Assembly (NCBI RefSeq): GCF_003994335.1
Contig: NZ_PNQZ01000070.1
Coordinates: 62,001-126,000, forward strand
From: Asaia sp. W19
Lineage (GTDB): Bacteria; Pseudomonadota; Alphaproteobacteria; Acetobacterales; Acetobacteraceae
Length of the DNA: 64,000 nucleotides
Direction: 5' to 3'
In this document: positions 43,919-58,138 of the stretch, in pieces
Layout of the letters: each line of letters starts with the position of its first letter
How positions within the stretch are numbered: position 1 is the first letter of the stretch
Program-made: the position numbers and the translations under genes
Notes under the pieces: generated by a model
What the model saw: only the letters and a program-made list of their open reading frames with translations
Database searches by the model: none
What the model was told of the DNA's origin: nothing

Positions 43919-44242
43919 ATGACGCAGAGCAGCTTTCATCCCACCAAGGAAATGGCCTCGGCGGCACGCCACGGTCTGAAATTGCGCGAGAAATTCAATC
44001 GGGGTGGCACAGATTCAGGCGTCAAACGCGCCGAACAACTGGCTGAGCAGAGGGATCTGGATGAGAGCGATCTCAAATCCATGCACAGCTTTTTCGCTCG
44101 CCACAAATCCGACCAGCATACCAAGACGCATGAATGGGGATCGGACAGCGACCCTTCGGCAGGCTATATCGCCTGGCTTCTATGGGGCGGAAACCCGGCA
44201 CGGGACTGGGTCGAGCGCAAACTCGAGTCAATCAAGGCATAA
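43919..44242 (+). CDS. Conserved small protein (phage-type family, unknown function)
   Basis: 107 aa from the ATG at 43919, with AAAGGAAG upstream. Sequence features are FHPTKEMASAARHGLKLREKFNRGG, KSMHSFFARH, and SAGYIAWLLWGGNPARDWVERK. I recognise this pattern from small proteins that recur in tailed phages and in bacterial genomes. It is predicted to be soluble and charged, with no catalytic motif. No other phage gene is nearby, so it may be a domesticated or stray copy. It lies in front of the convergent Hint-domain gene. Confidence 0.68.
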   Translation: MTQSSFHPTKEMASAARHGLKLREKFNRGGTDSGVKRAEQLAEQRDLDESDLKSMHSFFARHKSDQHTKTHEWGSDSDPSAGYIAWLLWGGNPARDWVERKLESIKA

Positions 44243-44350
44243 CCGGGCCAGCGCCGGGCCCGTCTCCAGATTGGCATCATGCGCGCGAGCCCATGTCAAA
44301 TGATCCATAGCGGAGATCGGTGAGATATCTCCGCCACGGAACCGGCACGC

Positions 44351-46240
44351 TCAGGCGGCCTCTGCTACCGTTTCCTGCGATACGGCAATTCTGGGCTCAA
44401 GGGTTGCTGCTACCTCTACGACCAGAACGGAAGGACCAGATCCGGCGCCATAGGGGAGATCGATCAGCGCATTCGCCTTGGTCCAGCGACGTTCACCCCC
44501 TTCTAGTCCGTGCCATCCGGAAAGCTCATCCGTTCTCAGATGCGCGTCCAGCCTGTATTCATGCCTCCCCCCGAAAAGGACGACCTCGCCGATCTGGACA
44601 CCCAGATAACGACGATCATCGTAAAATGGCCCGATGACATCGCAAGGACGGGCCACCGATGTGCTGAGCCTCACGCTTCGTGTTCCCTCCGGAATCGTGA
44701 AGGCGTAATGGGCTCCTGCGCAGGATCTCGGTTCGATAATCGTCCCATCGGCAGCGATCAGCGTAAGGGACGCGTTGGAAGATACGCCGAGCGCGACGGG
44801 CGCTGCAACACGCTCGCGCCGTTTGATCCCCAGGCTTTCCGCCCTACGGCTCAGTCGGTCATGGAGAGGCTCGAGAAATGCGGCGCGTGTCTCTAGAGGC
44901 GCAACAAGTTCAGGAGTCCGCAGGATCGCCGATCTACCGGATGTATCCTTTTTCACCACAACATCTGCGTAGCTTTCGGTGCGCACGCCGTTGGCCAGGA
45001 TGATCTCGTGGCGCTCCATCTCTACATGGTAATAGGCATAATGCTCGAGATCGGTCTCGTAACGGATCGATGCCCCATTGACCATGGTCCTGATCGCCAC
45101 GAGCTTTCCATCCAGCAGGAACCGATGCTCGGAAGTCACGAGGAGATCCTGGAATGGCTGTCCGTCTCCAAACGCGTTCTTGCAGATACGAACGCTGCAG
45201 CCGGCCTCGTCCAGACCGAGATTGGAGGCCTTCAGCACGGATACCGTTCCCCGCTTGACGGCTTTGATACGCTGAAAACTGGTCTTGCCGTCACGAATGC
45301 AACGCAGCCTTTGCCCTGCGCGCAGGGTTTCCACCGCAACCAGCCCGGTCTCTGCCTCGATAAGGGTTCCGGCCAGAAAGCAGGGCGCTGTGGCGAGATA
45401 GGTAACCCCCTTCATGCCCGGATAAGCGGTATTGGTAGACGCAAACAGGTCAGGATCGTATCCGAGACCAATATTGACGGTGAAGGAGTAAGCCCCGCTG
45501 GTCACAACGAGGTCTCCTGTCGCAGGATCATAATGCCAGGTGTCATCGCCATTCAGATAGGCGATATCAATGATATCTCCCTGACCGAACCCTGTGATGC
45601 TGACATTGCGTGCCGTGATTGTCGGTCTCAAAGCGAGGTAATTCCCGCCACCATTCATGTTGATCGTGACATCCGTCAGCGAGGTATAGACCGACAAATC
45701 TGACCCGGTCATGTTGATCGTCTGACCGCCACCGATCTTGCCAACCGTGCAGGCATTGAAATTGCCATTGTCTCCCGACAATCGCACACCCGTCATGTTG
45801 AAAGTTCCGGTCCCGGTGATCGTACTATTGGCATCTCCGGTATACATCGTAATATTTGACACATTGAGCGTGCCGTTATTTGTAGTTGTATTGTAAAAAT
45901 TTACGAAATTATTTCCATTATAGCTTCCATAACCGTTGATGTCCACCTGACCGCCCGCGTTGATGCAAGGCGTGGTATAATTTCCAACGGTTCCCGACCC
46001 ATATCCGAAATAGACTGTGGAAACTGCATAGGCCATATCGATGATGAGGTGCCCGTCCACGGTCATCACGCCATTCGCGGTCTTGGGATAATCCTGATTG
46101 CAAATAGCGCCCCCGGTTGACCCTGCGGTGCTCCCATTCGCGCCAAAATACTGGACGATGATTGTTTTGGTATCGCCCTCACCGACGCTACCATCTGCCC
46201 AAGGTTTGGCACCGCTGACCTGGGTTTCATAATCGGCCAT
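44351..46240 (-). CDS. Hint-domain protein with beta-rich passenger (copy 1)
   Basis: 629 aa, ATG at 46240 after GGAAG. Residues 1-280 are rich in Gly/Asn/Thr with repetitive beta strands (NGTLNVSNITMYTGDANS, TINMTGSDLSVYTS) resembling a beta-solenoid adhesin passenger. Residues 287-425 form a Hint domain of the Hint_2 type: CFLAGTLIEAETG opens with the catalytic Cys287, TSEHRFLL supplies the TxxH block (His372), and YYHVEMERHEIILANGV ends the core. The intein-type C-terminal His-Asn is absent. Residues about 505-597 form a further domain shared with the second copy. No Sec signal peptide is visible. Function and export route unknown; surface display is inferred. Confidence 0.75.
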   Translation of the reverse strand: MADYETQVSGAKPWADGSVGEGDTKTIIVQYFGANGSTAGSTGGAICNQDYPKTANGVMTVDGHLIIDMAYAVSTVYFGYGSGTVGNYTTPCINAGGQVDINGYGSYNGNNFVNFYNTTTNNGTLNVSNITMYTGDANSTITGTGTFNMTGVRLSGDNGNFNACTVGKIGGGQTINMTGSDLSVYTSLTDVTINMNGGGNYLALRPTITARNVSITGFGQGDIIDIAYLNGDDTWHYDPATGDLVVTSGAYSFTVNIGLGYDPDLFASTNTAYPGMKGVTYLATAPCFLAGTLIEAETGLVAVETLRAGQRLRCIRDGKTSFQRIKAVKRGTVSVLKASNLGLDEAGCSVRICKNAFGDGQPFQDLLVTSEHRFLLDGKLVAIRTMVNGASIRYETDLEHYAYYHVEMERHEIILANGVRTESYADVVVKKDTSGRSAILRTPELVAPLETRAAFLEPLHDRLSRRAESLGIKRRERVAAPVALGVSSNASLTLIAADGTIIEPRSCAGAHYAFTIPEGTRSVRLSTSVARPCDVIGPFYDDRRYLGVQIGEVVLFGGRHEYRLDAHLRTDELSGWHGLEGGERRWTKANALIDLPYGAGSGPSVLVVEVAATLEPRIAVSQETVAEAA

Positions 46241-47191
46241 GTCGCATTCTTCCAAATCGGTTTCAGAAATCTTGTTTTCCCTAGGACAACAGAAGAATTC
46301 GATCCGCAACCAAAAAAAGGCTTATCGAATACGAAGCGCAGAGGATCACACCTCGGATCCGCTCAATAACCCTTTGCAAACAGTGGTTTAAGTCATAATT
46401 TCAGATATTAATATATGGTTTCATAATCACTTCGAAACTTATCTAATCGAACATGATTCGTCATTTTATCCGAGAAAAATCCTGTAATAATCCATGAAGT
46501 ACTATCATTTTTTCGATATCGTAACAGTTGATATTTTTCCTGTTCGATATCGCCTTGTAGAAGAGCATGTGTAGAATCGGGTCCTATGCGTATCGACCAG
46601 ATCAATAAGCATATCCGGAAACATGCCATCAGGCGTCGGACATTGCCTCCCCAGGCTGTCAACTCGAATAGAGCGTTGCAAGAGGTCCGAAGTCGGATAT
46701 CAACACGCTTCCAAGAACAGAAGCCTTGGAATCTGCCGGTGGGGACGCGCTCTGCCACCTCCGCGCCGCGCCATCCCCAATCCCACAGAGCACTGAGAGC
46801 GGACACCCCCGACAGAGCGCTGTCATGTCTTGCGGCCATCGACAGCCATCAGGCCGTATCACGGCCCGCCACTCTTGTGCTGAAGCAGATTTGGGCAAAG
46901 CGCTTTCCTAACCCCAAATGACATGAAAGGACTTACACAATTGCTGACCGTCTCGACGTCCCATGATGTCACAAGCCGCTATCGAAGCGCACATGAGCTC
47001 ACGCCGCGTATCGTTTCGAACCATGCACCTCATTCGGGAGCGGATCGGCGCAGCGCAGGATCACGCTCGTAACGTGACCGTCATTCCGATGAAATAGGCG
47101 TGATCTCGCTTTCGAGACTCATACTTGCCGCAAATTCGGGTCAGAACTTGCCCTGACCGTTTCGGCAAGAACAAGAAGAGTCTCCAGTACA
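46241..47191. other. Gene-poor, AT-richer region upstream of Hint copy 1
   Basis: About 950 bp without a credible gene. The part at 46380-46570 is notably AT-rich, in contrast to its surroundings, as expected for a promoter or acquired DNA. Two 10-bp palindromic copies of TTCGATATCG lie at 46512 and 46543. Short open frames on both strands have no recognisable features. Confidence 0.5.
46512..46552. promoter_or_regulatory. Two palindromic TTCGATATCG copies, 31 bp apart
   Basis: Copies at 46512-46521 and 46543-46552 contain the perfect palindrome CGATATCG. The 31-bp spacing equals about three helical turns, so a regulator could bind both on one face. They lie about 270 bp upstream of the Hint copy 1 start. 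Confidence 0.4.
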
Positions 47192-48505
47192 ATGCAGATC
47201 AGTTTTTCTCCTCTCCTTTTGGCGGCGCTTTTATGCACAACCATGTCGCCAAGCAGGGCCGAAACCGCCAACCAGGACTGTCGGCGCCTCGGCCTGTCCG
47301 TCTGCCCGACACCTGTCGACACGGCTCTGCCCGATGCCCGTACAATGCTGAGCTGGGGACAAGCGGAGCGGGTGATCGGCTTCCGCAATGACTGGCGCAT
47401 GTATGACGGCGATGTCTTCAAGGCAAAAAACCCCTCCGCCTTGCCTCTCGGATTGAAGGATCTCTCCAGCGTAGACTATGAAATCGACGGGAAGCACTAT
47501 CCGCTTGCTGCCTATCTGAGCCGCAACAATGTGACCGGCCTCATGGTCATCAAGGACGGCAAGGTCGTTTATCGCTATTATGGCAACGGCAATACGCCTG
47601 ATACACTCTGGACTTCACGTTCCGTGGGGAAATCGGTCGTTTCCACGCTGGTTGGAATCGCACTCAAACAGGGCACGATCCATTCCCTCGATGATACCGC
47701 TGTCACATACGATCCGTCTCTCAAAGGCACGACGTGGGCTGGAATCACGATCCGTCAACTGCTTCAGCATGTCTCTGGCGTCGCGTGGAACGAGGATTAC
47801 ACAAATCCTGCCTCCGATTTCGCGCGTCTGACACGCTGCGAGGCAGGCACGGACCCGTATGCATGTGTCACAGCGCTTGTGGCCTCGCCCGAGCGCCCTT
47901 CTGTCGCCACACCCGGAACCACATGGTCCTACTCATCAGGGGGAGCCTGGGTTCTTGGAGACGTGCTCGAGAAAGCGACCGGCAAAACCATCGCGCAAAA
48001 CCTGCAGGAGATGATCTGGCAGCCTTATGGCATGACCCATGACGGTGTCTGGCACAGCTATCGGCAGAACCGGCATGACGTGGGCGCCCATGGCTTCAAT
48101 GCCACGATGGAAGACTGGGGCAAGTTCGGCCTCTTCGTCATGAATGACGGGGTCCTCCCCGATGGTCGCAAGATCCTGCCCGATTCATGGCTGAAGGCGT
48201 GCAGCCAATGGACCAAAGCACGTCATTCGGTCAGTCCCGCTCATCCCGACGGGACGTATGGCTTTGAATGGTGGCACAACTCTGTGCCTGCTGCGGCTGA
48301 TACTGTTGCCCCGAAGACCGGACTAAGCCCGAGTGAGTCGCTCTGGGCCATGGGTATCTTCGGGCAGTTGCTCGTTGTCGATCCGCAAGAAAAGCTGGTG
48401 ATCGTCCAGTGGGCGACCTGGCCCGAGGCCGAACCTTCCTTCAGCCGACAACCTCTCGAGGCGTCCCTCATGTTCAACGCCATCGCAAACAGGCTGAGAA
48501 ACTGA
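47192..48505 (+). CDS. Exported serine hydrolase, class C beta-lactamase fold
   Basis: 437 aa. Signal peptide MQISFSPLLLAALLCTTMSPSRAE, then the S-x-x-K motif SVGK at 144-147 in TSRSVGKSVV, and a Tyr motif YSSGG in TWSYSSGGAWVLG that takes the place of Y-x-N. LLQHVSGVAWNEDY and GFEWWHNSVP also fit esterase/penicillin-binding members (EstB-like) of the family. It would act in the periplasm on an ester or amide substrate; whether it degrades beta-lactams cannot be told. It is convergent with the PepSY operon; the Hint copy 1 gene is on the other side. Confidence 0.85.
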   Translation: MQISFSPLLLAALLCTTMSPSRAETANQDCRRLGLSVCPTPVDTALPDARTMLSWGQAERVIGFRNDWRMYDGDVFKAKNPSALPLGLKDLSSVDYEIDGKHYPLAAYLSRNNVTGLMVIKDGKVVYRYYGNGNTPDTLWTSRSVGKSVVSTLVGIALKQGTIHSLDDTAVTYDPSLKGTTWAGITIRQLLQHVSGVAWNEDYTNPASDFARLTRCEAGTDPYACVTALVASPERPSVATPGTTWSYSSGGAWVLGDVLEKATGKTIAQNLQEMIWQPYGMTHDGVWHSYRQNRHDVGAHGFNATMEDWGKFGLFVMNDGVLPDGRKILPDSWLKACSQWTKARHSVSPAHPDGTYGFEWWHNSVPAAADTVAPKTGLSPSESLWAMGIFGQLLVVDPQEKLVIVQWATWPEAEPSFSRQPLEASLMFNAIANRLRN

Positions 48506-48539
48506 AATCCTTCCTCCCCGGCCGAAGCCAGGGCATCGG

Positions 48540-50354
48540 TCAGGCTGCGCGCGGCCGCTCGACTCGGAAAGAATGACGGCACAAAACCCCACCCAGGATC
48601 AGGGAGATGACGGCAACTGCCCAGCCGGTCGTAATCTCCCGACCACTCTGCACACAAACAAGCCCGGCAAGCAGAAGATAGAAGGCACCGCTGAGAGCCA
48701 GAAGGGGGCGCTCCCCTATACGTGGAATGAAGGCGCCTGAAACGAAGAGCCAGAACACACCCTGATAGACCAGCATGGCGCTGGATTCCGAAACCCAAGC
48801 TGGGCAAGCAAGCCCTGCATCAAGCAGCACCGCAATGCCGGCCATGCATCCTGCGCAGCATCCGGTCGTCAGTCTTGCCAGGAACCATGTTCCACGGGTG
48901 TCCAGCTCAAGACCGGAGGCCTTCTCCCTGCGCCGGCGCACGGCAATCCAGAGACGATTACCGGTATAGAACAGAAACGCTCCGGCAAAGCCCAGAACGA
49001 GATAAGCCCAGCGTATGGGGACGCCCCCGTAACTGCCGAAATGCAGCGCAAAGAAACTCGTCAGCGCAGCAAATCCGGCGGATTGCTGACCGGGCAGATA
49101 GTCCCGCCACAAAAGCGCACCCGTTGTCGGATCGAGCGTTGCAAAGCCACTGCTCGGGCCGCGCATAACATGCGCGGCATCATAGCCTGACACACGCAAT
49201 GTCAGAGACCCCCCTGAAGCAGAGGGTGCTGCACCGCTACGTTCGCGAGGCTTGCGCTGCGTATAATCCAATGTATCCGGAACAAAGCCGGGCGCGCTCT
49301 GCGCAAGGCGTGAGAGAATGCGATCAGGCGGCAGCGGGAGGGGAACCGCGCGCCCCGGAGCTCCGCCGTGCAAAACGGGGCCACCCGTGCCAGATCTGTC
49401 ATCCCCCGCTGCCTGGCGTGACAGAGCCGGCGGAATGTCTTGCGTGCCGCTCCGGGCCGCCATGACGTGACCTTCATCTGCGACCGGCATCCGGGGCCCT
49501 TGCCCGGCAGGGCCAAATGCTGACTGATCCCCGACGGCTCTGCCCGGACCGCCCGGCCCCGAGAGTGCGCCTTGCCCAGCTTCTCGACCGAAGCGTGCAT
49601 GCCCCTGCCCCGTAGTTCCCTGAAGGGCACCGTGCTCGGCGCCTCGACGCTCCCCGCCCAGAAATCCCGCTTGCACGGAGAAGATCACGTCGTGAAACGC
49701 GAAAACCACAGAAGTCAGGGCCATGACGATGTGAAAAGGGAGGGAGCAGAAGCCAAGCAGATTATGCAGATCGAGCCATTTGCGTCGCACGCTGCCCACC
49801 AACCTGACGGCAAAAAGGCCACGCGCCAGAGCGGGCAGGAAAACGAGCGTGCCGGAAACCAGTGCCAGCGCATAACCCAGCGCAATGAACCCCATGACGA
49901 TCATGGCCGTCTCATGAGGCAAAGGCAGTCCCATGCGCTGATGAATCACATCGATGACCTGCGCGACGGGAGAAGGTCGGCGCGTCACGGTCACAAGCTG
50001 ACCCTGCGCATCAAGCGCCGCCATCATGACCGCCGCCGAACCGTGCCCATGCCGCCCCTCGCTCAAAGGCCAAACAAGTCTGGCGGGATGCGCGGCATCA
50101 GGCGCCACCACGATCGAGTATTGGCGGCGTGCCTGGGGAAACGCCGTGAAAGCCTTCTCGAGAAGCTCCGGTGTCCGTTCCAGAGAAACGGGCTGAGGCA
50201 GCGCAGGGCGTGGTGTCATCCAAGATTCAAGTGCAGGCTCGAACATGGTGATGGCCCCGGCATAAAAGGCAATGAACAGAAAGAGCCCGGCCACCACGCC
50301 TACCCAGCTATGAACCTCGCGATAGACCGCAACAATATCGGCGCGCAGCTTCAT
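48540..50354 (-). CDS. PepSY-associated membrane protein of the iron operon
   Basis: 604 aa, last gene of the four-gene iron-type operon. TM helices occur at about 17-37, 150-175 and 205-225, then several more in the C-terminal part (WAYLVLGFAGAFLFYTGN and AGIAVLLDAGLACPAW). The opening REVHSWVGVVAGLFLF and FATLDPTTGALLWRDYLPG match the PepSY-TM family, thought to help with ferric-siderophore reduction. Residues about 232-338 form a Gly/Arg/Pro-rich low-complexity insert, free of stop codons in this frame. Start at 50354 overlaps the previous gene stop by 4 bp. Confidence 0.78.
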   Translation of the reverse strand: MKLRADIVAVYREVHSWVGVVAGLFLFIAFYAGAITMFEPALESWMTPRPALPQPVSLERTPELLEKAFTAFPQARRQYSIVVAPDAAHPARLVWPLSEGRHGHGSAAVMMAALDAQGQLVTVTRRPSPVAQVIDVIHQRMGLPLPHETAMIVMGFIALGYALALVSGTLVFLPALARGLFAVRLVGSVRRKWLDLHNLLGFCSLPFHIVMALTSVVFAFHDVIFSVQAGFLGGERRGAEHGALQGTTGQGHARFGREAGQGALSGPGGPGRAVGDQSAFGPAGQGPRMPVADEGHVMAARSGTQDIPPALSRQAAGDDRSGTGGPVLHGGAPGRAVPLPLPPDRILSRLAQSAPGFVPDTLDYTQRKPRERSGAAPSASGGSLTLRVSGYDAAHVMRGPSSGFATLDPTTGALLWRDYLPGQQSAGFAALTSFFALHFGSYGGVPIRWAYLVLGFAGAFLFYTGNRLWIAVRRRREKASGLELDTRGTWFLARLTTGCCAGCMAGIAVLLDAGLACPAWVSESSAMLVYQGVFWLFVSGAFIPRIGERPLLALSGAFYLLLAGLVCVQSGREITTGWAVAVISLILGGVLCRHSFRVERPRAA

Positions 50355-50659
50355 GGACTGCCTCCCGCAGAGAAACCGGCCATCAGCGTATTGGCAAGCC
50401 AGACGAGGCAGGCGAGCCAGCCAAAGCCGAACCAGGCCCCAAGCCCGGAGCGAAACAGGAAACACAGGCTGAGGCAGAGCACCCAGATTAGCGCTGCCCC
50501 CCACATCAGGAACTGTGCGGACAGGGTCATCGGATTGCCCGTACTACCGCAGAGATGCCCGATCAGCACCATGACCCCCAGAGCGAGCGCGGCACCCGGA
50601 ATCAGGGCCGCAAGCGTCTTTGACAGCCAGTGTCGTGTGGTGAGCGGCGCGGCTTTCAT
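50351..50659 (-). CDS. Small membrane protein, DUF3649-like
   Basis: 102 aa with three hydrophobic helices (AALIPGAALALGVMVLIGHL, LMWGAALIWVLCLSLCFLF, WFGFGWLACLVWLANTLM). Position between a DUF3325-like gene and a PepSY gene matches the DUF3649 member of siderophore-receptor operons. It probably helps the PepSY protein in iron release at the inner membrane, but biochemical function is unknown. Its stop overlaps the PepSY start (ATGA). Confidence 0.65.
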   Translation of the reverse strand: MKAAPLTTRHWLSKTLAALIPGAALALGVMVLIGHLCGSTGNPMTLSAQFLMWGAALIWVLCLSLCFLFRSGLGAWFGFGWLACLVWLANTLMAGFSAGGSP

Positions 50660-50669
50660 GATTGTTCGC

Positions 50670-50954
50670 TCATGACCCGCTTCGCTCCCGCCGAAAGACC
50701 GCCACGGTCACGGGCAACAGGCTGAGTACGACCATCAACCCGATCGCGCTCGCAAAAACCCCCACAAGCGGGCTCGTAGCCGTCGCAAGGCCGATCATGG
50801 ACAGAACCAGGAGAAGCATCCCGGCGAGAACTGCGGGGCGCAGGGGCAGCCGACGCGCCAGAAGCTGCTGCTGATGGGCAGCCAGATAGAAAGCCATACC
50901 CGCCATCACGACCAGTATACCCCCGGCGAGGGCGAAAAGCGGATGCGCACTCAC
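50670..50954 (-). CDS. Small membrane protein, DUF3325-like
   Basis: 94 aa from a GTG at 50954 that overlaps the receptor stop (GTGA). Three hydrophobic segments occur: LFALAGGILVVMAGMAFYLA, LAGMLLLVLSMIGLATAT and VGVFASAIGLMVVLSLLPV. AHQQQLLARRLP after the first helix recalls the DUF3325 family, found with siderophore receptors. It is likely part of the same iron-uptake unit; the specific role is unknown. Confidence 0.65.
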   Translation of the reverse strand: MSAHPLFALAGGILVVMAGMAFYLAAHQQQLLARRLPLRPAVLAGMLLLVLSMIGLATATSPLVGVFASAIGLMVVLSLLPVTVAVFRRERSGS

Positions 50955-53233
50955 CAGCGATATTCCAGGCGCATGGTCAGGCTGCGACCCTGCCCATAAT
51001 AGCAGGCAGAAACGGCCGTACAGGTCGCCACGAAGCGCTTGTTCGCGATGTTGCGCATGTTGAGCGAGAAGGAGAGACCGTCATAGCGCGGCCGCGCCAC
51101 GCCAAAATCATAGCGCAGGAACATGTCATAAAGCGTATAGCCGGGGATAGAGAGTGTATTGGCCGTGTCGCCATAGGAGTGGCCTGTATAGCGCACGCCA
51201 CCACCGAAACCCGCACCACGCATGGGGCCATGCAGCAGGCGCTGATCGACAAAGAGCGAAGCCATCCATTTCGGGGCCTGCGGCATAATGTTACCGATCT
51301 GCGAAGCCGTATTGGATTCCGTGATTTTTGCCGCGCTGCGCGTCCCGGTGAAAATGACCGCCATATCCCAGGGCAGCGTCGCCCGGCCTTCAAGCTCGAG
51401 ACCGCGCACACGCATCTCGCCCGTCTGCACAAGGCAGGTAGCGGTGCCACAAAGCTGGCCGTTCGGTGCCGGTGTCGTCACATTCTGCTGGGTGATCTGA
51501 TACCCGCCAAAGGTCACATAGATGCTCTTGCCGTACTGATAGCGCAGCCCTGCTTCGTACTGGTCACCCGTGGTCGGCTTGAAGGGCTTGTTATCGAGTG
51601 CGGTGGAAGGATCGGACACCTGAGGCTGAAATGACGTGGCATAGCTGAAATAGGGTGCCAGGCCGATCCTGGTGCGATAGACGGCACCGGCACGCCAGGT
51701 GAAACGGTCATTATCGTTCAGGTAGCGTTTCTTGGTCAGGATATTGAGCGTGTTGTCACGCGCCCAGTCCTGACGCCCCCCGACCGTGATGTAGAGATTC
51801 TCGATCTTCATCTGGTCCTGGAAATAAAGACCATTCTGCTGTGATTCCGTAGCGCCATAAACCTGTGGCGCCAGACCGGCCGAATAGCCGGTCGTGCCAC
51901 GGGCCACCGGATCGAAGATATTCAGCAAGGGCAGCACAAGCGCCGAATTGACCAGATCGCGCGAGCTTTCCCAATTGGTGTAGAAATAATCCGTACCGAA
52001 CAGCAGGGTATGGCGCACCATGCCTGTTCTGGCCCTGACCTCAAGCTGGGTATCCGTCGCGACACCTTGGGAACGCCCGCGCCCTTCGACTGCACGACGA
52101 TTGACGGTCTGATAGGGCACGCACCCCTTGATGCTGGCCGTGCATTTTGTGAGTGTATCCCCCGAAAGCACGGTCGAGCGATAGAGATTATCGAGATAGG
52201 TATAACGCGTGTTGTTGCGCAGCGTGACGATATTATTGAACTTGTGCTCGAGGAACGAGCCCGTCAGCACCTGTGTCCGATCGAAAGTGTTCCAGTCCGG
52301 CTCGCCGATATTTTCATCATTGCGGATATAGCGTCCCTTGGACGGCACAAGTGTGCCAGTCATCGGCAGGAACTGGAAAGTCGACCCACCCGTATCGCGC
52401 TGATATTGCGCCAGCAGCGTCCAGCTCGACCCTTTGGCATAATTCCATGTCAGACTGGGCGACACGTAATAGCGCCCGCTATTCACATCATTGACCTGCG
52501 TTCCGCCATAACGCGCCACAGCAACGATACGCCCCTGGACCGTTCCTGATTTATTGAGTTTGCCGGAAACATCTCCCGAAGCCTGGCCCTGCCAGTTGCC
52601 GAGCTTGGTATAGCCGATGGTCTGGAGAAAGAATTCACCATGCGACTTTTCGGTTGGCCGCTTGGTGGTGAGATTGACGATACCGCCCGGTGCCGTCTGG
52701 CCATAAAGCGCGCCTGAGGGCCCCTTCAGAACCTCGATCTGCTGCAATGCAAAAGGATCGAAGGAGGTACGCGTCCACTGGCCGCCCGACGGCAGACGCA
52801 GCCCATCGACGAAATTATTATTCGACGAGAACCCCCCAGCGCCGAACCCGCGTACCGAAACCTCATCCACGCGATTATCGACACCGGATGGCTCTGCCTG
52901 CACGCCCGCCATATAGGAGAGCGCATCTGCAATGGTCGGTGACGCGCGCAATTCGATCTCTTCACGCGTCACGATCGAGATCGTCTGCGGGGAATCGATG
53001 ATCGGTGTCCGCGTTTTGGTCGTGGCCCCTGCCTGGGAAAGACCCGTGGCCGACACAACGATCACCTCATCTGCCTTGTCGCGGTTCGTGGCCTTTTTCC
53101 TGGCCGCATCATGTCGGGCTGCGACCGGTTTTTTTCGCAAGATCGACTCGGGCTGTCTGTCCTCTGCCAGAGCCATGGGGAGAGAAGCCGCACTTGCCGC
53201 AGCAAGGGCGAGAAGACCGATTGTCCTGCGCAT
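50951..53233 (-). CDS. TonB-dependent siderophore receptor
   Basis: 760 aa. Signal peptide MRRTIGLLALAAASAASLPMALAED, TonB box DEVIVVSATG at 55-64, then the plug with TRTPIIDSPQTISIVTREEIE and LSYMAGVQAEPSGVDNRVDEVSVRGFG, typical of FpvA/FhuA/FecA-like siderophore receptors. The barrel ends RSLTMRLEYRW with the terminal aromatic residue. It would import a ferric-siderophore complex. It begins a four-gene operon; a palindromic site at 53281-53305 sits in front. The divergent MarR-GNAT gene may regulate it. Confidence 0.92.
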   Translation of the reverse strand: MRRTIGLLALAAASAASLPMALAEDRQPESILRKKPVAARHDAARKKATNRDKADEVIVVSATGLSQAGATTKTRTPIIDSPQTISIVTREEIELRASPTIADALSYMAGVQAEPSGVDNRVDEVSVRGFGAGGFSSNNNFVDGLRLPSGGQWTRTSFDPFALQQIEVLKGPSGALYGQTAPGGIVNLTTKRPTEKSHGEFFLQTIGYTKLGNWQGQASGDVSGKLNKSGTVQGRIVAVARYGGTQVNDVNSGRYYVSPSLTWNYAKGSSWTLLAQYQRDTGGSTFQFLPMTGTLVPSKGRYIRNDENIGEPDWNTFDRTQVLTGSFLEHKFNNIVTLRNNTRYTYLDNLYRSTVLSGDTLTKCTASIKGCVPYQTVNRRAVEGRGRSQGVATDTQLEVRARTGMVRHTLLFGTDYFYTNWESSRDLVNSALVLPLLNIFDPVARGTTGYSAGLAPQVYGATESQQNGLYFQDQMKIENLYITVGGRQDWARDNTLNILTKKRYLNDNDRFTWRAGAVYRTRIGLAPYFSYATSFQPQVSDPSTALDNKPFKPTTGDQYEAGLRYQYGKSIYVTFGGYQITQQNVTTPAPNGQLCGTATCLVQTGEMRVRGLELEGRATLPWDMAVIFTGTRSAAKITESNTASQIGNIMPQAPKWMASLFVDQRLLHGPMRGAGFGGGVRYTGHSYGDTANTLSIPGYTLYDMFLRYDFGVARPRYDGLSFSLNMRNIANKRFVATCTAVSACYYGQGRSLTMRLEYRW

Positions 53234-53280
53234 TGTCTTGAATTCACATCATCTTAGAACGAAACCCGCTCGGAGATCTT

Positions 53281-53305
53281 GCAATTGCGAGTTATTGTCA
53301 ATTGC
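53281..53305. promoter_or_regulatory. Palindromic operator candidate upstream of siderophore receptor
   Basis: GCAATTG (53281-53287) and CAATTGC (53299-53305) are inverted arms with an 11-bp spacer, 48 bp before the receptor start and about 190 bp before the divergent MarR-GNAT gene. The sequence is AT-rich and positioned like an iron regulator box (Fur or Irr type), although it is not an exact known consensus. Confidence 0.45.
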
Positions 53306-53497
53306 ATAATGACTCCTGAGTCAGGTTTATCGCCCGCTCTGAAGCCTCAAAGACACAGTTTGGAGAACTGATCTGTTACGTCACGGGCGCGAGGCACAGA
53401 TTTGCAGAAGGTCATGACCCGAGAGTTGCCTCATTCGCAGCGCAGAGGGCAGATGCGACCCATCGCCCCACGCCAGTGAAGGACGGACTGCAGTATT

Positions 53498-54418
53498 ATG
53501 GATGACATGATCGAGGCCATCAGGCGGTTCAATCGGTTCTATGTGAGCCATATCGGGGCCATCGACACCCATTTCCTGGGTGAGGATATCAGCATGGCCG
53601 AGGCGCGCGTGCTGTTCGAAATCGCCCGTAACGCGCCGGTACGCGCCGCCAGCTTGCAGGAGATCCTACAGATCGACCGAGGTTATCTGAGCCGCCTTAT
53701 CACACGTCTCAGCCGACGGGCACTCGTTGCGCGAGACGCCACGACACAGGACAGACGCACGCGTCCGGTCAGCCTGACCGATTCTGGCGCCCGTCTTGTC
53801 GCCCAACTCGATCAACGCATGCGGAGTGCCGTCGAAAAGGCGCTCACGGTTCTGGACCCGATGGAGCAGCACGACCTGGTTTCATCCCTGTCGCTCGCCC
53901 ATCGCCTGCTGGCCCCTTCAGCCCCGGCAACGCTCACCCTGCGTGCGCCGCGATCCGGAGAGGTGAGCCTGATCGCGGCCCGCCAATCGGCGCTTTATGC
54001 CGAGAGCCATGGCTGGGGGCATAAGCTGGAATGTCTGATTGCCGAAACCGCCGCACAATTTCTGCGCGAATTCGTACCGGATCGCGAGGCGTGCTGGATT
54101 GCCGATCTGGATGGCGTCATGGCAGGGGCCGTTTTTCTGACCGATGAAGCCGCTCGCGGAAAACCGGGTACGGCGCGGCTGCGCCTGCTCCATGTCGAAC
54201 CCTTCGCCAGAAGGCGCGGCATCGGCGATGCCCTCGTGCAGCAATGTCTGAATTTCGCGCGTGAGAAACAGTATGAACGCGTGGTGCTATGGACCCATAC
54301 CGTGCTGGACACGGCGCGTCGCCTTTATGCCCGCAATGGTTTTGCCTGTGTCGCGACCGCACCTCACGATCTGTTTGGCGTCCCACTGCAAGGAGAGGAC
54401 TGGGAGAGGCATCTCTAA
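53498..54418 (+). CDS. MarR-type regulator fused to GNAT acetyltransferase
   Basis: 306 aa. Residues about 1-140 form a winged-helix MarR domain (ISMAEARVLFEIARNAPVRA, LQEILQIDRGYLSRLITRLSR, wing with RDATTQDRRTRPVSLTDSG). Residues about 150-300 form a GNAT domain with the acetyl-CoA motif RRRGIGDALVQQCL and WTHTVLDTARRLYARNGF. Such fusions occur in many proteobacteria; the acetyltransferase substrate is unknown. It is divergent from the siderophore operon and could sense or modify a related metabolite. Confidence 0.87.
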   Translation: MDDMIEAIRRFNRFYVSHIGAIDTHFLGEDISMAEARVLFEIARNAPVRAASLQEILQIDRGYLSRLITRLSRRALVARDATTQDRRTRPVSLTDSGARLVAQLDQRMRSAVEKALTVLDPMEQHDLVSSLSLAHRLLAPSAPATLTLRAPRSGEVSLIAARQSALYAESHGWGHKLECLIAETAAQFLREFVPDREACWIADLDGVMAGAVFLTDEAARGKPGTARLRLLHVEPFARRRGIGDALVQQCLNFAREKQYERVVLWTHTVLDTARRLYARNGFACVATAPHDLFGVPLQGEDWERHL

Positions 54419-54455
54419 GCCCCTCCCATGAACCGTCTGATCGAGCCCTCTTGAT

Positions 54456-56537
54456 TCAGCCTACCAGACGCGCCGCGTCCCCGTCTTCGGCCAGCAGATG
54501 GACCGAAGGACCTTCATCGAGAATCTCGATGGAGAGCAGAGAGGGGCCGACATCGTCCAGACCACCTTGCAAGGACGCGGCCGGGGCCAGATCCGGCAGA
54601 TAAGCGAGGTCGGTCGTCCAGCGTGATGCAGCCTCGCCCAGCCCATGCCAGCCCGTAAGCTCGTGGCACGTCAGGTGGCTCGTGATCGCGCGCTGCCCCC
54701 TTGTATGGAACACGTTCATCTCACCGATCGAGACGCCAAGCAGACGCCGGTCATCAATGAATGGACCAAAAACCTGCGAGGGAAGCGCCGCGCGCACCCG
54801 CAGATAAGCGCTGGACAGACCCGAAGGCAGGCTGAAAATCACCCGGTTACCCGCCCTGCGCAGCGGATGAATCAGGGTCCCTGCACCCGTCACGAGACAC
54901 GGCGACTGGGCTCGAGTACCGCTGATTTCCGGCAGAGGGGCGCAACCGACGCCCATGATGCCCGCCCGTGCGCGCAAGGCGCGATGGAGCGGTTCCACGA
55001 AGTGGCGCGTCGTATCGACAGGGCGCCCCGCTGGCATCGTTTCGACCCGGGATACGGTCGTGGCGTCGAGATAGGTTTCCGTCATCGTACCGTTAGCCTG
55101 GATCAGGTGATGTCCGGCGCAGACGACGTGATAATAGTCATAGCTTGGCATCTCGGTCTCATAACGGATCGTTCCGCCATTGATGAGCATACGAACCGGC
55201 ACCAAAGCATGATCGAAAACGAAACAATGCTCACCGGTCACCAGCAGATCTTGGAATGGTACGCCCGGTGCAAAGGCATCTGCAAGAATGCGGACAGGAA
55301 AACCGGCGAGATCAGCCGCGTTTTTGTGTCCATGCGCGTGATGTGTATGGCGCGATACCGACAAGATCGGCGCAAGTTGCCGCTCACCGCTATCATAGAT
55401 GGCGATCAGATCGCCTGCACGCAGCGTCTCCACTGCACCATAGCCGTTCACGGTTTCGATCAGGGCACCCGGGAGGAAGCAGGACGGGTCCATACCCCCC
55501 TGAACCGTCACACTGCTTCGTCCGCCTGCGACAGTCGGGTTGATGAGATTTCCGCCCGAAGCAATATAAAGCGAGCCCGCTTCGGTTTGCGTTCCGATAT
55601 GCGCGTCCTGCGCCGTTCCGTCGATCCGGTTAAATATTCCGTTGAGCGAGACGAAATAATCCTCCTGCGACAGGCTGCCAGCCGCGCCAGAAATCGTACC
55701 GCGATAGACGTTGGAGGTCGAAACGCCACCATCACGGATAACCGTGTCAACACCGCTCTCCGTAGTGGAATTACGCATCGACGCCCCGTTACTCACAAAG
55801 ACCTGTCCACTTTGCACAAGGACATGATCAACCGTTGCACCCGACTGGACGTAAAGCGCTCCACCGGTCAGGCACACCCCCCCGGTGGGCTGCAGGAAGG
55901 AGTTGGTGCCACTCTGGTAATAGGTTTGCCCGCCATTCAGGACTGCCGACCAGGTACCCGAAATCATGCGCGTGTATGATGGCGGCGGCGGGGCCGATAG
56001 CGGGACAGATCCATAGCTTGCCCCCAAATCCACAAAAGCTACTGTGGATTCAATCGTCAGGCCCGTCACCTGGGCGCCATCGGAAATGGCGACATAGGAC
56101 CCGCTTCCCATCGTGGCATCCTGCAGGATGGCACCAGAGCCAACATCAAATGAGTCCACCTCGTTCGCATTGATCGTACCGACGCGATTGAACGTGTCGC
56201 TGTAAGAGGCCCCGCCCGCGCTGATATACGCCTCGTAGCGCGTGGTGACATCCGCCCCGCCATTATAGCTGTTGGAAATGCTTTTCCCGCCAGACGCGAT
56301 GGTCACGCCACCGCTGCTCATGATCGAGCCCTGCAGGATGCCGCCCGAGGCAATCGAGATCTGCGTCGACACGGCAGAGATGGCGCTCACAACCGCACCG
56401 CTCGTGACCGTCAGGGTGGCGCCTTTAAACACGACCGCACCCGAATACGAGACGGTCTGGCCATTAACGGTGCTTGTGTAGATGGTCCCCTGACCGCTCA
56501 GAACAGCATACCATGTTCCGCTGAGTGTATAAGCCAT
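54456..56537 (-). CDS. Hint-domain protein with AIDA-like repeat passenger (copy 2)
   Basis: 693 aa, ATG at 56537 after AGGA. Residues 1-345 carry strand-loop-strand repeats like those of autotransporter passengers (SGGVTIASGGKSISNSY, SGAILQDATMGSGSYVAI) and an internal duplication split by SAPPPPSYT at about 181-189. Cys353 in CFLPGALIETVNGYGAVETL starts the Hint_2 domain, VTGEHCFVF supplies the TxxH block (His437), and YYHVVCAGHHLIQANG ends it. The C-terminal domain (about 560-650) carries GPFIDDRRLLGVSIGE, ELTGWHGLGEAASRWT and LAYLPDL, as in copy 1. No signal peptide, no beta-barrel translocator. Function unknown. Confidence 0.75.
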   Translation of the reverse strand: MAYTLSGTWYAVLSGQGTIYTSTVNGQTVSYSGAVVFKGATLTVTSGAVVSAISAVSTQISIASGGILQGSIMSSGGVTIASGGKSISNSYNGGADVTTRYEAYISAGGASYSDTFNRVGTINANEVDSFDVGSGAILQDATMGSGSYVAISDGAQVTGLTIESTVAFVDLGASYGSVPLSAPPPPSYTRMISGTWSAVLNGGQTYYQSGTNSFLQPTGGVCLTGGALYVQSGATVDHVLVQSGQVFVSNGASMRNSTTESGVDTVIRDGGVSTSNVYRGTISGAAGSLSQEDYFVSLNGIFNRIDGTAQDAHIGTQTEAGSLYIASGGNLINPTVAGGRSSVTVQGGMDPSCFLPGALIETVNGYGAVETLRAGDLIAIYDSGERQLAPILSVSRHTHHAHGHKNAADLAGFPVRILADAFAPGVPFQDLLVTGEHCFVFDHALVPVRMLINGGTIRYETEMPSYDYYHVVCAGHHLIQANGTMTETYLDATTVSRVETMPAGRPVDTTRHFVEPLHRALRARAGIMGVGCAPLPEISGTRAQSPCLVTGAGTLIHPLRRAGNRVIFSLPSGLSSAYLRVRAALPSQVFGPFIDDRRLLGVSIGEMNVFHTRGQRAITSHLTCHELTGWHGLGEAASRWTTDLAYLPDLAPAASLQGGLDDVGPSLLSIEILDEGPSVHLLAEDGDAARLVG

Positions 56538-57274
56538 GCAACATCCTGATTATTGTTTTTTATTGATGATATGTTCCATCTTGCAAATACAGTATTTTTT
56601 CGTCAATAAACTTCGCAATCAGTATCATTATAAAATGTTTCCGCCGCCCCCTGGTCTTCGAACGCATTCAGTAAAAAATAAGGGCAGCGCGTTTTTTTGG
56701 GGCGACATGCTTCGCAGAACGCGTTCAGGACAGTGCAGGGAAATAACCGCCGAAATTCGGGCGACAAATGCGGTGACTATTTTCGCAACGAGAAGGCGGC
56801 ACGAGAACGTTTCTGAGTCGTCCCATTGGTAGCAAGTAACAATCCTTGCCAATAACCGAGTACGCCATCAGTACGCCCTACACATGACCTGAGCGCCGTT
56901 CAGCTTATACGCGAACCCGAAGAGTTCGAGATACGGATCATCGTGCGGCTTAGGCCATGACACTCCGCATCATGGCGTTCAGGGCCGGGACAACGGGCCG
57001 CTATTTGCCCATGGGTCAGATCTCGCAAGCCCGGCCTGTTTCGCGATGCACAGGTCAGCCGATACCTCTGTCGAGGGGACGCCTGAACCGAGAATCCTCT
57101 CACACGAGAGCCTCATTTCCGGCTCAGGCAGCTCTCCACGGGGACGACGCACGCCTGGCGGGGAGCCTGAAGAGAGCCAGGCTCTGCAGTAAGCGCCGGA
57201 CGCTCATCCGGTGATGATATCGTTCGAGGCTTATCGGTACGGCCAGTCGCTCCCGTTTCCAAGCGGCAGCGACT
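56538..57274. other. Gene-poor region between Hint copy 2 and DUF1460 gene
   Basis: About 740 bp with no supported gene. The first 120 bp next to the Hint start are AT-rich and probably carry its promoter. Short open frames on both strands (for example 56957-57214) have composition and content unlike proteins and no clear ribosome-binding site. Confidence 0.45.
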
Positions 57275-58138
57275 TCACTCGCCCTCGATCATGCGCAGCA
57301 CCAGAATACCTGGTTTGCCCTGGATATAGCTACCGAGTTCGGTGTCGACCACTTTCCTGTTGGCCTTAAGCGAGGATGCGTTGCGAAAATAGAGCGTGTG
57401 ATCCTTCCAGATGGCAAGCCCGGTATGGGTGACATCCAGCCCATCCAGGGCAGTGTAGATACCAATTACATCGCCCGTATGGATCTTCGCAGCCACTTCA
57501 GGCGTGAGAGCCTCTGGCGGCAGGTAGGCGATATCGCGTGCATGGGGAGACAGCCCCCTTATATACACACCGCCATCCTTGCGCTGATTGAGGATCTTAT
57601 GTGTGACGCGCACCCCGGAAGACAGGTCGGATGTGATATCGCGCGCGTTATTCGGGGCATAGGCGACCCAATCCGTCAGGAAGTGACGCCGATCCAGATA
57701 GGCGACATGCCCACCCCGATAGCGTGTTCCCACGAGTGCCTCGAGAAATCCCCGTCGATCATGGCCAAGAGCCAGAGCACGCACCTGATCGATGAAGGTG
57801 TAGCAATCGACGCCCTCGAAGCGGACCACGAGTTTCTCCGGTGTGTCTGCGCTACCGATCAGCGTATCAGCCTGATAGGGGGTCCCCAGAAACCGGGCCG
57901 ATATCTGGTCAAGCCGTTTGGTGAAGTCGTGAACCGGCGCCATCTCCTGCTCGATCCGATCAACACGCGCCTGATCGGCAGGAGAGAAAACGCGCTCTGC
58001 TGGCAGAGTAAAACCGATGCTGGCAGCTGACACCTGGCCGGGCGCTGCCATGACGGGAGCAGCGCCTGCCCCCAACCCTGCGAGCAGCAGCGCGCCGATT
58101 CCGAGAGTGCCCCAAGGGGCGACGCGACGCTTTTCCAT
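57275..58138 (-). CDS. DUF1460 family exported protein (NlpC/P60-like)
   Basis: 287 aa. Signal-like N-terminus GTLGIGALLLAGLGAGAAPVMAAP. The motif ISARFLGTPYQADTLIG, then FEGVDCYTFIDQVRAL with Cys112, and HTGLAIWKDHTLYFRNASS, are the DUF1460 pattern of predicted cysteine peptidases/amidases that may act on peptidoglycan. Catalytic His would be the one in HTGLAI. It is the last gene before the sugar cluster on the same strand, 70 bp from the MFS gene stop, and could be transcribed after it. Substrate unproven. Confidence 0.8.
   Translation of the reverse strand: MEKRRVAPWGTLGIGALLLAGLGAGAAPVMAAPGQVSAASIGFTLPAERVFSPADQARVDRIEQEMAPVHDFTKRLDQISARFLGTPYQADTLIGSADTPEKLVVRFEGVDCYTFIDQVRALALGHDRRGFLEALVGTRYRGGHVAYLDRRHFLTDWVAYAPNNARDITSDLSSGVRVTHKILNQRKDGGVYIRGLSPHARDIAYLPPEALTPEVAAKIHTGDVIGIYTALDGLDVTHTGLAIWKDHTLYFRNASSLKANRKVVDTELGSYIQGKPGILVLRMIEGE

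Follow-up and report, generated by a model that had tools for sequence, protein, structure and literature searches.

Two genes on the minus strand of a 64,000-nucleotide stretch of Asaia sp. W19 DNA (assembly GCF_003994335.1, contig NZ_PNQZ01000070.1, positions 62,001 to 126,000; hereafter the window) encode proteins that end in the same kind of tail, a Hint_2 domain followed by a conserved C-terminal domain, and begin with dissimilar N-terminal parts, which raises the question of what such a tail does for the protein in front of it. Here, the tail or C-half denotes the part from the first residue of the Hint domain (Cys1) to the protein end, comprising Hint_2, a helix/linker and a C-terminal beta-domain, and the passenger denotes the part before Cys1. 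The two window genes are members of a large family in acetic acid bacteria, in which a variable passenger is joined to a constant Hint_2/beta-sandwich tail, and in which passengers have been repeatedly exchanged with a boundary at Cys1. In the reading that we favour and consider probable, the tail is Hedgehog-like, the passenger is freed or transferred at Cys1, and adhesin-like passengers are exchanged there.

This family has apparently not been described before. No account of proteins combining a passenger with a Hint_2/beta-sandwich tail was found in the open-licence PMC literature, and the same literature yielded nothing on a Hint domain in Acetobacteraceae, on intein-like sequences in Gluconobacter, or on a heptosyltransferase together with an autotransporter in Acetobacteraceae. 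One study of cellulose production names a Hint protein with a mutation and no known function (PMC11999647).

Two proteins with different passengers and a shared tail

A preliminary description of the window, made from the letters of the DNA, had reported two open reading frames (ORFs) with the order passenger, Hint_2, linker and conserved C-terminal domain; both ORFs lie where it had placed them, and both have that order.

44351..46240, minus strand: Hint protein 1, 629 amino acids from the likely ATG; the ORF at 44351-46309 (652 amino acids) reaches a TTG at 46309; Hint_2 E 1.2e-28
45383..46240, minus strand: passenger 1, all-beta, like the fungal Awp1/Hyr1 A-domain (beta-helix and alpha-crystallin fold in Awp1); PF11765 E 5.4e-08
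44963..45382, minus strand: Hint_2 domain 1, residues 309-449; Cys1 codon 45380-45382; TSEH motif; block-F His; ES at the place of the intein His-Asn
44393..44905, minus strand: C-terminal domain 1; helix, loop and conserved beta-sandwich (DDRR-LGV, GW, RWT)
54456..56537, minus strand: Hint protein 2, 693 amino acids; Hint_2 E 5.1e-29
55482..56537, minus strand: passenger 2, strand-loop-strand type (GTW..VL..Y.SG / SGG); AIDA-like cluster p0 (34 passengers, single linkage)
55065..55481, minus strand: Hint_2 domain 2, residues 353-491; Cys1 codon 55479-55481; TGEH motif
54504..55028, minus strand: C-terminal domain 2, which aligns with C-terminal domain 1 and is of the same family

The ATG at 46240 (MADYET...) is the likely start of protein 1 because GGAAG lies just upstream. 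The Hint_2 domains (PF13403) scored 100.7 bits in protein 1 and 102 bits in protein 2 against a curated cut-off of 28.4, and each is followed by the shared C-terminal domain of about 170 amino acids. The passengers are unlike one another, as the preliminary description had held: the second belongs to the 34-member AIDA-like cluster, and the first is Awp1-like, scoring 32.5 bits against Hyphal_reg_CWP (PF11765; cut-off 28). The best Foldseek match of the full protein 1 model (mean pLDDT 82.3) was the Awp1 A-domain 7o9q_A (E 8.4e-06, probability 1.00, TMt 0.55, TMq 0.30, root-mean-square deviation 9.4); a sequence search of the PDB with a profile of four PF11765-type passengers did not find the Awp1 chain. 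Pfam recognised only Hint_2 in the window proteins, plus PF11765 in protein 1, and no known anchor family was seen. A phage origin was rejected, as a tblastn search of 50,697 phage records with protein 1 came back empty and neither protein matched PHROGs at E 1.

Proteins compared

The source assembly is a 3.94 Mb draft in 228 contigs with a contamination figure of 8.08%, and on that figure a few of its low-GC (guanine plus cytosine) contigs could be foreign; one contig showed 87.4% identity to A. krungthepensis over 9.2 kb. Of its 27 Hint_2 matches, 25 are whole domains and the other two belong to a single remnant that is in pieces (C205); they yield 24 distinct Hint proteins, contig C215 being a near-repeat of C155 and one protein being truncated by a contig end. 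These 24 proteins and 80 named relatives make up the comparison set of 104. The relatives are the best 80, ranked by similarity to protein 1, of 552 confirmed stretches among 556 candidates from a profile search with the C-half; an alignment as query confirmed 552/556, and protein 1 alone as query found zero relatives. The titles of all 80 retained relatives name acetic acid bacteria or Acetobacteraceae. The search pattern preset the residues around P-x-R-x-L-V-N, so that conservation there is not independent, and left other sites free.

Conservation of the tail

The preliminary description had named the conservation of the Hint cysteine across homologues as a check on its idea of a swappable module, and Cys1 was present in 104/104 proteins. 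The T and the H of the TxEH motif were likewise each present in 104/104, as was the second block-F His (the first in 103/104), the Glu of an ESY motif, and each of the DRR, GW and WT motifs of the last domain. The residue after that Glu, at the place aligned with the terminal Asn of inteins, was Ser in 90 proteins and Thr in 14; we take the Glu-Ser/Thr place to be that of the intein C-terminal His-Asn, from our reading of the intein block pattern rather than from a structure alignment. Because His-Asn is replaced by Glu-Ser/Thr in 104/104 proteins, splicing is not expected, and an intein reading was rejected with His-Asn in 0/104 at the place so defined. Tail length was nearly constant (quartiles 345-349 amino acids, full range 322-377), and passengers ran from 27 to 1161 amino acids.

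The Hint part of the protein 1 model matched the bacterial intein-like (BIL) and intein structures 6y75 (Tetrahymena), 2lwy (E 5.6e-04, TMt 0.71) and 1mi8. C-terminal domain 1, modelled alone, was predicted to form a helix and a beta-sandwich (pLDDT 83.4, pTM 0.73), and a fold search matched it to no solved PDB structure at E 0.001. Pfam gave two isolated weak hits among 24 C-terminal domains and none for the member from protein 1; no barrel family was among these hits or among the domains of the window proteins, in keeping with the earlier statement that no translocator barrel is visible.

Exchange of passengers at Cys1

To follow up the swappable module, C-halves were tabulated with their passenger types. 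Single-linkage clustering by blastp sorted 97 passengers into 12 multi-member clusters and 16 singletons, and on a tree of the tails the six larger passenger groups (69 rows, with 35 ungrouped rows left out) need 18 changes, where the minimum is 5 and shuffled labels give a mean of 32.4. The tree is weak in many places: of its 101 inner branches, 44 are open, and seven end branches are long. The count of changes is soft for this reason, which tells against our reading as far as that figure goes; taken by themselves, the starred branches require two or more changes for each of p0, p2, p4 and p5, and only one each for p1 and p3. The table and the tree bear out the swappable module of the preliminary description.

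The place of the exchange was seen in pairs of proteins with similar tails. Among 110 pairs with 60-80% identical tails, the passengers were strongly related in 43 (median identity 52.5%), undetectably related in 66 (32.0%) and weakly related in one, against a background passenger identity with a median of 29.8% (80 sampled pairs). In 60 pairs with undetectably related passengers, compared ungapped, identity was 1.00 at Cys1 and 0.27, 0.03, 0.13 and 0.00 at positions -1 to -4, and from there to -40 it was at most 0.25, a peak reached at -7. In the pair L160/L193, whose tails are 78.6% identical, DNA similarity runs from 22 bp after the start of the Cys1 codon to beyond the stop codon.

Passengers might instead stay in place and diverge at a rate that erases the signs of their relationship, and repetitive beta-solenoids do drift quickly in general; yet the similarity of the passengers in the 110 pairs is bimodal, with a single weak pair between 43 strong and 66 undetectable ones, and different passengers stand beside htpG in relatives of one genus. 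Fast divergence in place of exchange is very improbable and was rejected on this bimodality. A common promoter or insertion sequence at the Hint genes of the source genome was also rejected, since their upstream and downstream DNA gave no shared match (blastn-short, E 0.01, plus strand).

Nature of the passengers

The passengers are like adhesins or stalks: they resemble the stalks of AIDA and Ag43, repeats that are targets of O-heptosylation, and the Awp1 adhesin domains of fungi. In a scan of 99 passengers with NCBIfam (E 0.001, curated cut-offs not applied), 22 matched AIDA-I, 22 matched O_hepto_targRPT (TIGR04415, an O-heptosylation strand-loop-strand repeat) and 13 matched Ag43; in a Pfam scan (E 0.01), 13 matched PF16168 AIDA, 6 matched PF11765 Hyphal_reg_CWP and 4 matched G8, and no RTX repeat family was among the 10 families listed. 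Scanned singly, three of seven passengers of the source genome passed the TIGR04415 cut-off. The passengers are acidic (median pI 4.3), and 75/104 contain no Cys. A plain hydropathy check found one Sec-like N-terminus among 97 intact 5' ends, the mark being a mean of 2.0 over 14 residues, and this agrees with the earlier remark that no Sec signal is visible.

Passenger 1 looks, over window positions 45404-46240, like a bacterial counterpart of the fungal Awp1/Hyr1 wall-adhesin domain. Asaia has flowers and insects as habitats in common with yeasts. According to PMC8746771, 93.0% of the Awp1 similarity network is bacterial.

Genes linked to Hint genes

ORFs were clustered over 102 Hint loci, many of them from related species, so that the counts are not independent events. 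Five clusters recurred in at least 5/102 loci: an AMP-binding enzyme (9), a TibC-type heptosyltransferase (7), a short-chain dehydrogenase (7), a helix-turn-helix regulator (6) and a glycosyltransferase (6); all remaining clusters occurred in four loci or fewer. Pfam confirmed members of all of these except the short-chain dehydrogenases, whose recurrence is probably due to chance, the superfamily being very common. None of the five clusters is a transporter, as the preliminary description had found for the window, and none of the four Pfam-confirmed kinds adjoins the window Hint genes. The AMP-binding gene lies directly behind the Hint gene on the same strand in 9/9 loci, which span several genera; the two are 55-117 bp apart, or their ORFs overlap by about 80 bp.

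L063, L157, L176, L180, L199, L207, L219, L222, L229: loci of the AMP-binding gene, a second kind of AMP-binding enzyme gene

By label, the passenger is of the p0 type in eight of these nine loci; the remaining one, the C203 locus of the source genome, likewise has p0 passengers. A helix-turn-helix gene (about 186-211 amino acids), a possible regulator, was seen near Hint genes in L160, L162, L163, L166, L178 and L220, in several of them directly behind.

TibC-type genes (TIGR04414) were over cut-off in 17 of 26 genomes, a hand-picked survey of genomes related to each other that is only suggestive, and they were present in 14/16 Hint-positive and 0/7 Hint-negative genomes, with G308, G312 and G313 outside this split. 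In the source genome they were over cut-off on four contigs, and a Hint gene lies within 2 kb on three of the four, for which chance was estimated by hand at about 1 in 2,000; the gaps are 17 bp on the same strand (L067), 1.3 kb (L071) and 1.7 kb (L063). The fourth contig, C197, carries two TibC-type genes at its very end and no Hint gene in the 9.6 kb examined; the layout in relatives suggests that it may adjoin C203. The gap is 12 bp in L302, from another genus.

TibC-type loci with no nearby Hint gene were L299, L301, L303-L306, L309, L312, L314 and L315. In several acetic acid bacteria (L301, L303-L306), TibC-type genes, often paired, lie near AMP-binding (acyl-ligase-like) genes, as they also do in L300, L307, L310, L313 and L063 from the Asaia group and a relative; the AMP-binding genes near TibC-type genes were Pfam-confirmed in L300, L304 and L305. 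A large polyketide synthase was confirmed in L304, and similar large ORFs were seen by eye in L301, L303, L305 and L306. A sugar-lipid pathway could be involved at such loci. Elsewhere, a Microvirga Hint protein sits among mannose-nucleotide and glycosyltransferase genes. This context, like the AMP-binding and glycosyltransferase genes linked to Hint genes, would suit a setting of acyl groups or glycans but is no proof of one. The preliminary description had proposed a module for surface display or modification, and the adhesin-type passengers and linked TibC-type genes fit a role in display or adhesion.

Proposed processing of the proteins and its alternatives

According to PMC7664689, Hog domains use the first N-S shift only, for cholesterol modification, and BIL domains give predominantly cleaved products; in PMC2362128, the region after Hint in Hedgehog-related proteins is an adduct recognition region. 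The Hint-tail proteins, which appear from their sequences to be a variant of Hint autoprocessing proteins, are like Hog and Hedgehog proteins in having the cargo directly before the Hint Cys, the Hint domain in the C-terminal half and a further conserved domain after it, many paralogues with different N-termini, the N-terminal residues kept and no intein-type C-terminal His-Asn; unlike these, they are bacterial, show no signal peptide and carry adhesin-like cargo, and their last domain is a predicted beta-sandwich with no detected kinship to the sterol region. BIL domains share the Hint fold (matches 2lwy and, from Tetrahymena, 6y75) and the lack of a +1 nucleophile after a C-terminal Asn, but the proteins studied here have a constant C-terminal beta-domain and many paralogues per genome, and with Glu-Ser/Thr in 104/104 at the presumed His-Asn place (from the block pattern) they have no Asn to cyclise. 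Since the order of parts is that of Hog and Hedgehog-related proteins, with the N-terminal residues kept and the C-terminal ones missing, we infer cleavage at Cys1.

In the proposed mechanism, the Hint domain would convert the bond between passenger and Cys1 into a thioester, as in the Hedgehog C-terminal half, and the passenger would then be freed by hydrolysis or handed to a nucleophile from, or near, the beta-sandwich domain. This domain stands where Hedgehog-type proteins have their sterol or adduct recognition region, and is the candidate for binding the acceptor or the envelope. Some passengers would probably be O-heptosylated in the cell by the linked TibC-type enzymes. New passengers would be recombined onto the tail at or near Cys1, and whole Hint genes would be gained and lost at chromosomal sites and on plasmids.

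Several results weigh against this reading. The Hedgehog Hint structure 1at0 was not among the 50 fold matches listed for the protein 1 model, and, because the last domain matched no PDB structure, its putative acceptor-binding role rests on its position and a weak context. No clear Sec-like start and no recurrent transporter gene were found, so the proteins might stay cytoplasmic. As regards heptosylation, only 4 of the 24 Hint genes of the source genome have a TibC-type gene within 2 kb, neither window gene among them; passenger 2 alone had no NCBIfam match at E 0.001, and hence none to the heptosylation repeat, and the second Hint passenger of L063, which lies beside a TibC-type gene, also lacked an NCBIfam heptosylation-repeat match.

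What might follow cleavage can be read in more than one way. By hydrolysis only, the tail would be a removable export or holding signal, for instance for type I secretion, and the passenger would end up free in the medium. The predominance of cleaved products from BIL domains agrees with such simple release (PMC7664689), as does the fact that no conserved acceptor is visible, and a type I HlyD gene was over its family cut-off in 12/14 genomes searched, the source genome included. However, HlyD also occurred in two of four searched genomes without Hint_2 (G077 and G043), so this co-occurrence says little, and type I secretion as the export route was set aside because HlyD presence does not discriminate; there is no RTX family among the 10 listed for the 99 passengers, and release leaves the need for a well-conserved beta-sandwich after Hint unexplained. 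We regard release by hydrolysis only as somewhat improbable. A covalent display of the Hedgehog type is a tentative and rather doubtful proposal. Here the Hint thioester would pass exchangeable adhesin passengers, some of them heptosylated, to an acceptor at the surface (a polysaccharide, lipid or hopanoid); the beta-sandwich domain would pick this acceptor, and the AMP-binding and glycosyltransferase genes linked to Hint genes may serve to make it. The AMP-binding gene directly behind Hint genes in 9/102 loci speaks slightly in favour of this proposal.

If the Hint domain no longer cut, it would be a structural joint, and the uncut protein would be displayed through an envelope-binding beta-sandwich. 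No signal peptide or known anchor was seen, and the C-terminal domain could bind a surface glycan, the Microvirga protein (85% of the Hint-plus-domain query) lying among mannose-nucleotide and glycosyltransferase genes; a mere joint would nevertheless need neither catalytic residues that are invariant in 104/104 proteins nor an exchange boundary at Cys1, and we hold this to be quite unlikely. Polymorphic toxin cassettes with Hint domains, such as those of Maf and contact-dependent inhibition (CDI) systems, have a variable toxin after Hint and an immunity gene. The modular exchange and the decayed tail fragments are reminiscent of these cassettes, and papers about Maf and CDI toxins mention intein-like domains. 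The polarity is the wrong one, however, with the variable part before Hint and the constant part after it; the recurrent neighbours are AMP-binding enzymes, TibC-type and other glycosyltransferases, helix-turn-helix regulators and dehydrogenases, with no small immunity-like genes, and the recognisable passengers are of adhesin types. That Hint releases a toxin here is scarcely credible, and it was rejected on the polarity and the kind of neighbours.

These proteins can also be set beside two kinds of adhesin. Like AIDA-I and Ag43 with the Aah and TibC enzymes, part of the set has strand-loop-strand passengers matching TIGR04415, NF033176 and NF033177, and some Hint genes have a linked TIGR04414 gene over cut-off; unlike those autotransporters, they show no Sec signal or beta-barrel, and a Hint tail stands in its place. 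Passenger 1 is like the fungal Awp1/Hyr1/Hpf1 adhesins in being over the PF11765 cut-off and in matching the Awp1 A-domain with its model, and differs from them in being joined to a Hint tail, with no glycosylphosphatidylinositol anchor or Ser/Thr stalk seen. With this family, the idea of Hedgehog-type autoprocessing in bacteria can be put to the test, and autotransporter-like passengers are met without the autotransporter barrel. The joining of many adhesin-like passengers to one tail suggests that surface proteins are processed and displayed in a plug-in fashion, and the family may explain surface variation of acetic acid bacteria. Were cleavage confirmed, the tail could be used as a natural C-terminal ligation tag, and were covalent display true, it would be a sortase-free way of coating Gram-negative acetic acid bacteria with a changeable set of surface proteins.

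Hint genes among Asaia genomes

Whole Hint genes are accessory, being present or absent among Asaia relatives. The preliminary description had spoken of an accessory segment flanked by two Hint genes; synteny with Asaia genomes reverses this picture, and such a segment was rejected, the iron block being conserved backbone and the Hint genes the variable pieces. Of the segment between them, the serine hydrolase gene is indeed variable, and the TonB/PepSY iron genes, present in 7/7 relatives, are not.

44230..48831, no strand: variable segment downstream of htpG, with Hint 1 and the serine hydrolase gene; 322 bp in G311
47192-48505: serine hydrolase gene, beta-lactamase family, PF00144; variable in Asaia relatives
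48832..53328, minus strand: PepSY_TM and TonB-dependent receptor genes (Pfam); Asaia backbone, aligned in 7/7 relatives reaching it
54419..57288, no strand: stretch with Hint 2; 68 bp in G311, whose left flank matches at 73.1% and right flank at 94.6%

All eight other members of the genus group have an HtpG with 95-100% identity, split into two pieces in one of them, and the PepSY/TonB block, a MarR-GNAT gene and an AmiA-like gene align in 7/7 relatives that reach them (G308-G313 and G085), the contig of G314 ending early. Both window Hint genes are missing from their places in these seven genomes, and G310 has the region 47085-49198, including the hydrolase, without Hint 1. Beside htpG, G314 carries, up to its contig end, a Hint gene with a 149-amino-acid passenger unlike that of protein 1 and closest to C167 of the source genome (46.7%), and G085 carries a Hint tail remnant. 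In G313, about 10 kb stand in the place of Hint 1 downstream of htpG (L245 2752-11724); they include genes for an ABC-2 exporter pair and an epimerase, together with ORFs that weakly resemble heptosyltransferases. This filling of the place suggests that the downstream side of htpG is a hotspot for surface genes. Another Hint gene lies at the window's sugar-transporter place in G310 and in a syntenic Asaia siamensis stretch (L170). In its middle, the PepSY_TM protein (window positions 48540-50504) has an unusual stretch rich in Gly, Ala and Arg, which is of lesser length in some relatives.

Distribution of the family

Hint_2 was present in 96/120 surveyed genomes of the bacterial family, among which the source genome has the highest count (27 matches). 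Sought in other contexts, the C-terminal domain turned up solely within the same family, in 3/190 genomes of the class with one profile (A1) and in 3/240 genomes with a wider one (A5), the source genome being among the three both times, apart from one weak Hint-free relative (L112, below). Hint together with the C-terminal domain aligned over 85% of the query in a Microvirga plasmid and over 87% in a Rhizobium plasmid. Thirteen more distant family proteins, found with a simple motif in 30 loci and judged by eye, had a diverged C-terminal domain (8), a short tail (4) or another tail (1).

Fragments or stop-bearing Hint tails, possibly decayed cassettes, were noticed in the source genome at C189:3502-3678, C205:10874-11439, C15:10904-11302 and C179:2034-2519. 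A Hint-free protein (L112 1366-2478), from a genome without Hint_2, weakly matches the C-terminal domain (E 2.7e-9), and a further stretch comes after the match. In the relative G314, a passenger-like frame overlaps a Hint frame in a different reading frame (L311 10898-13656). A 3,851-bp Acetobacter plasmid (L317, NC_021979.1) has an IS6-family transposase and a Hint gene as its only annotated genes.

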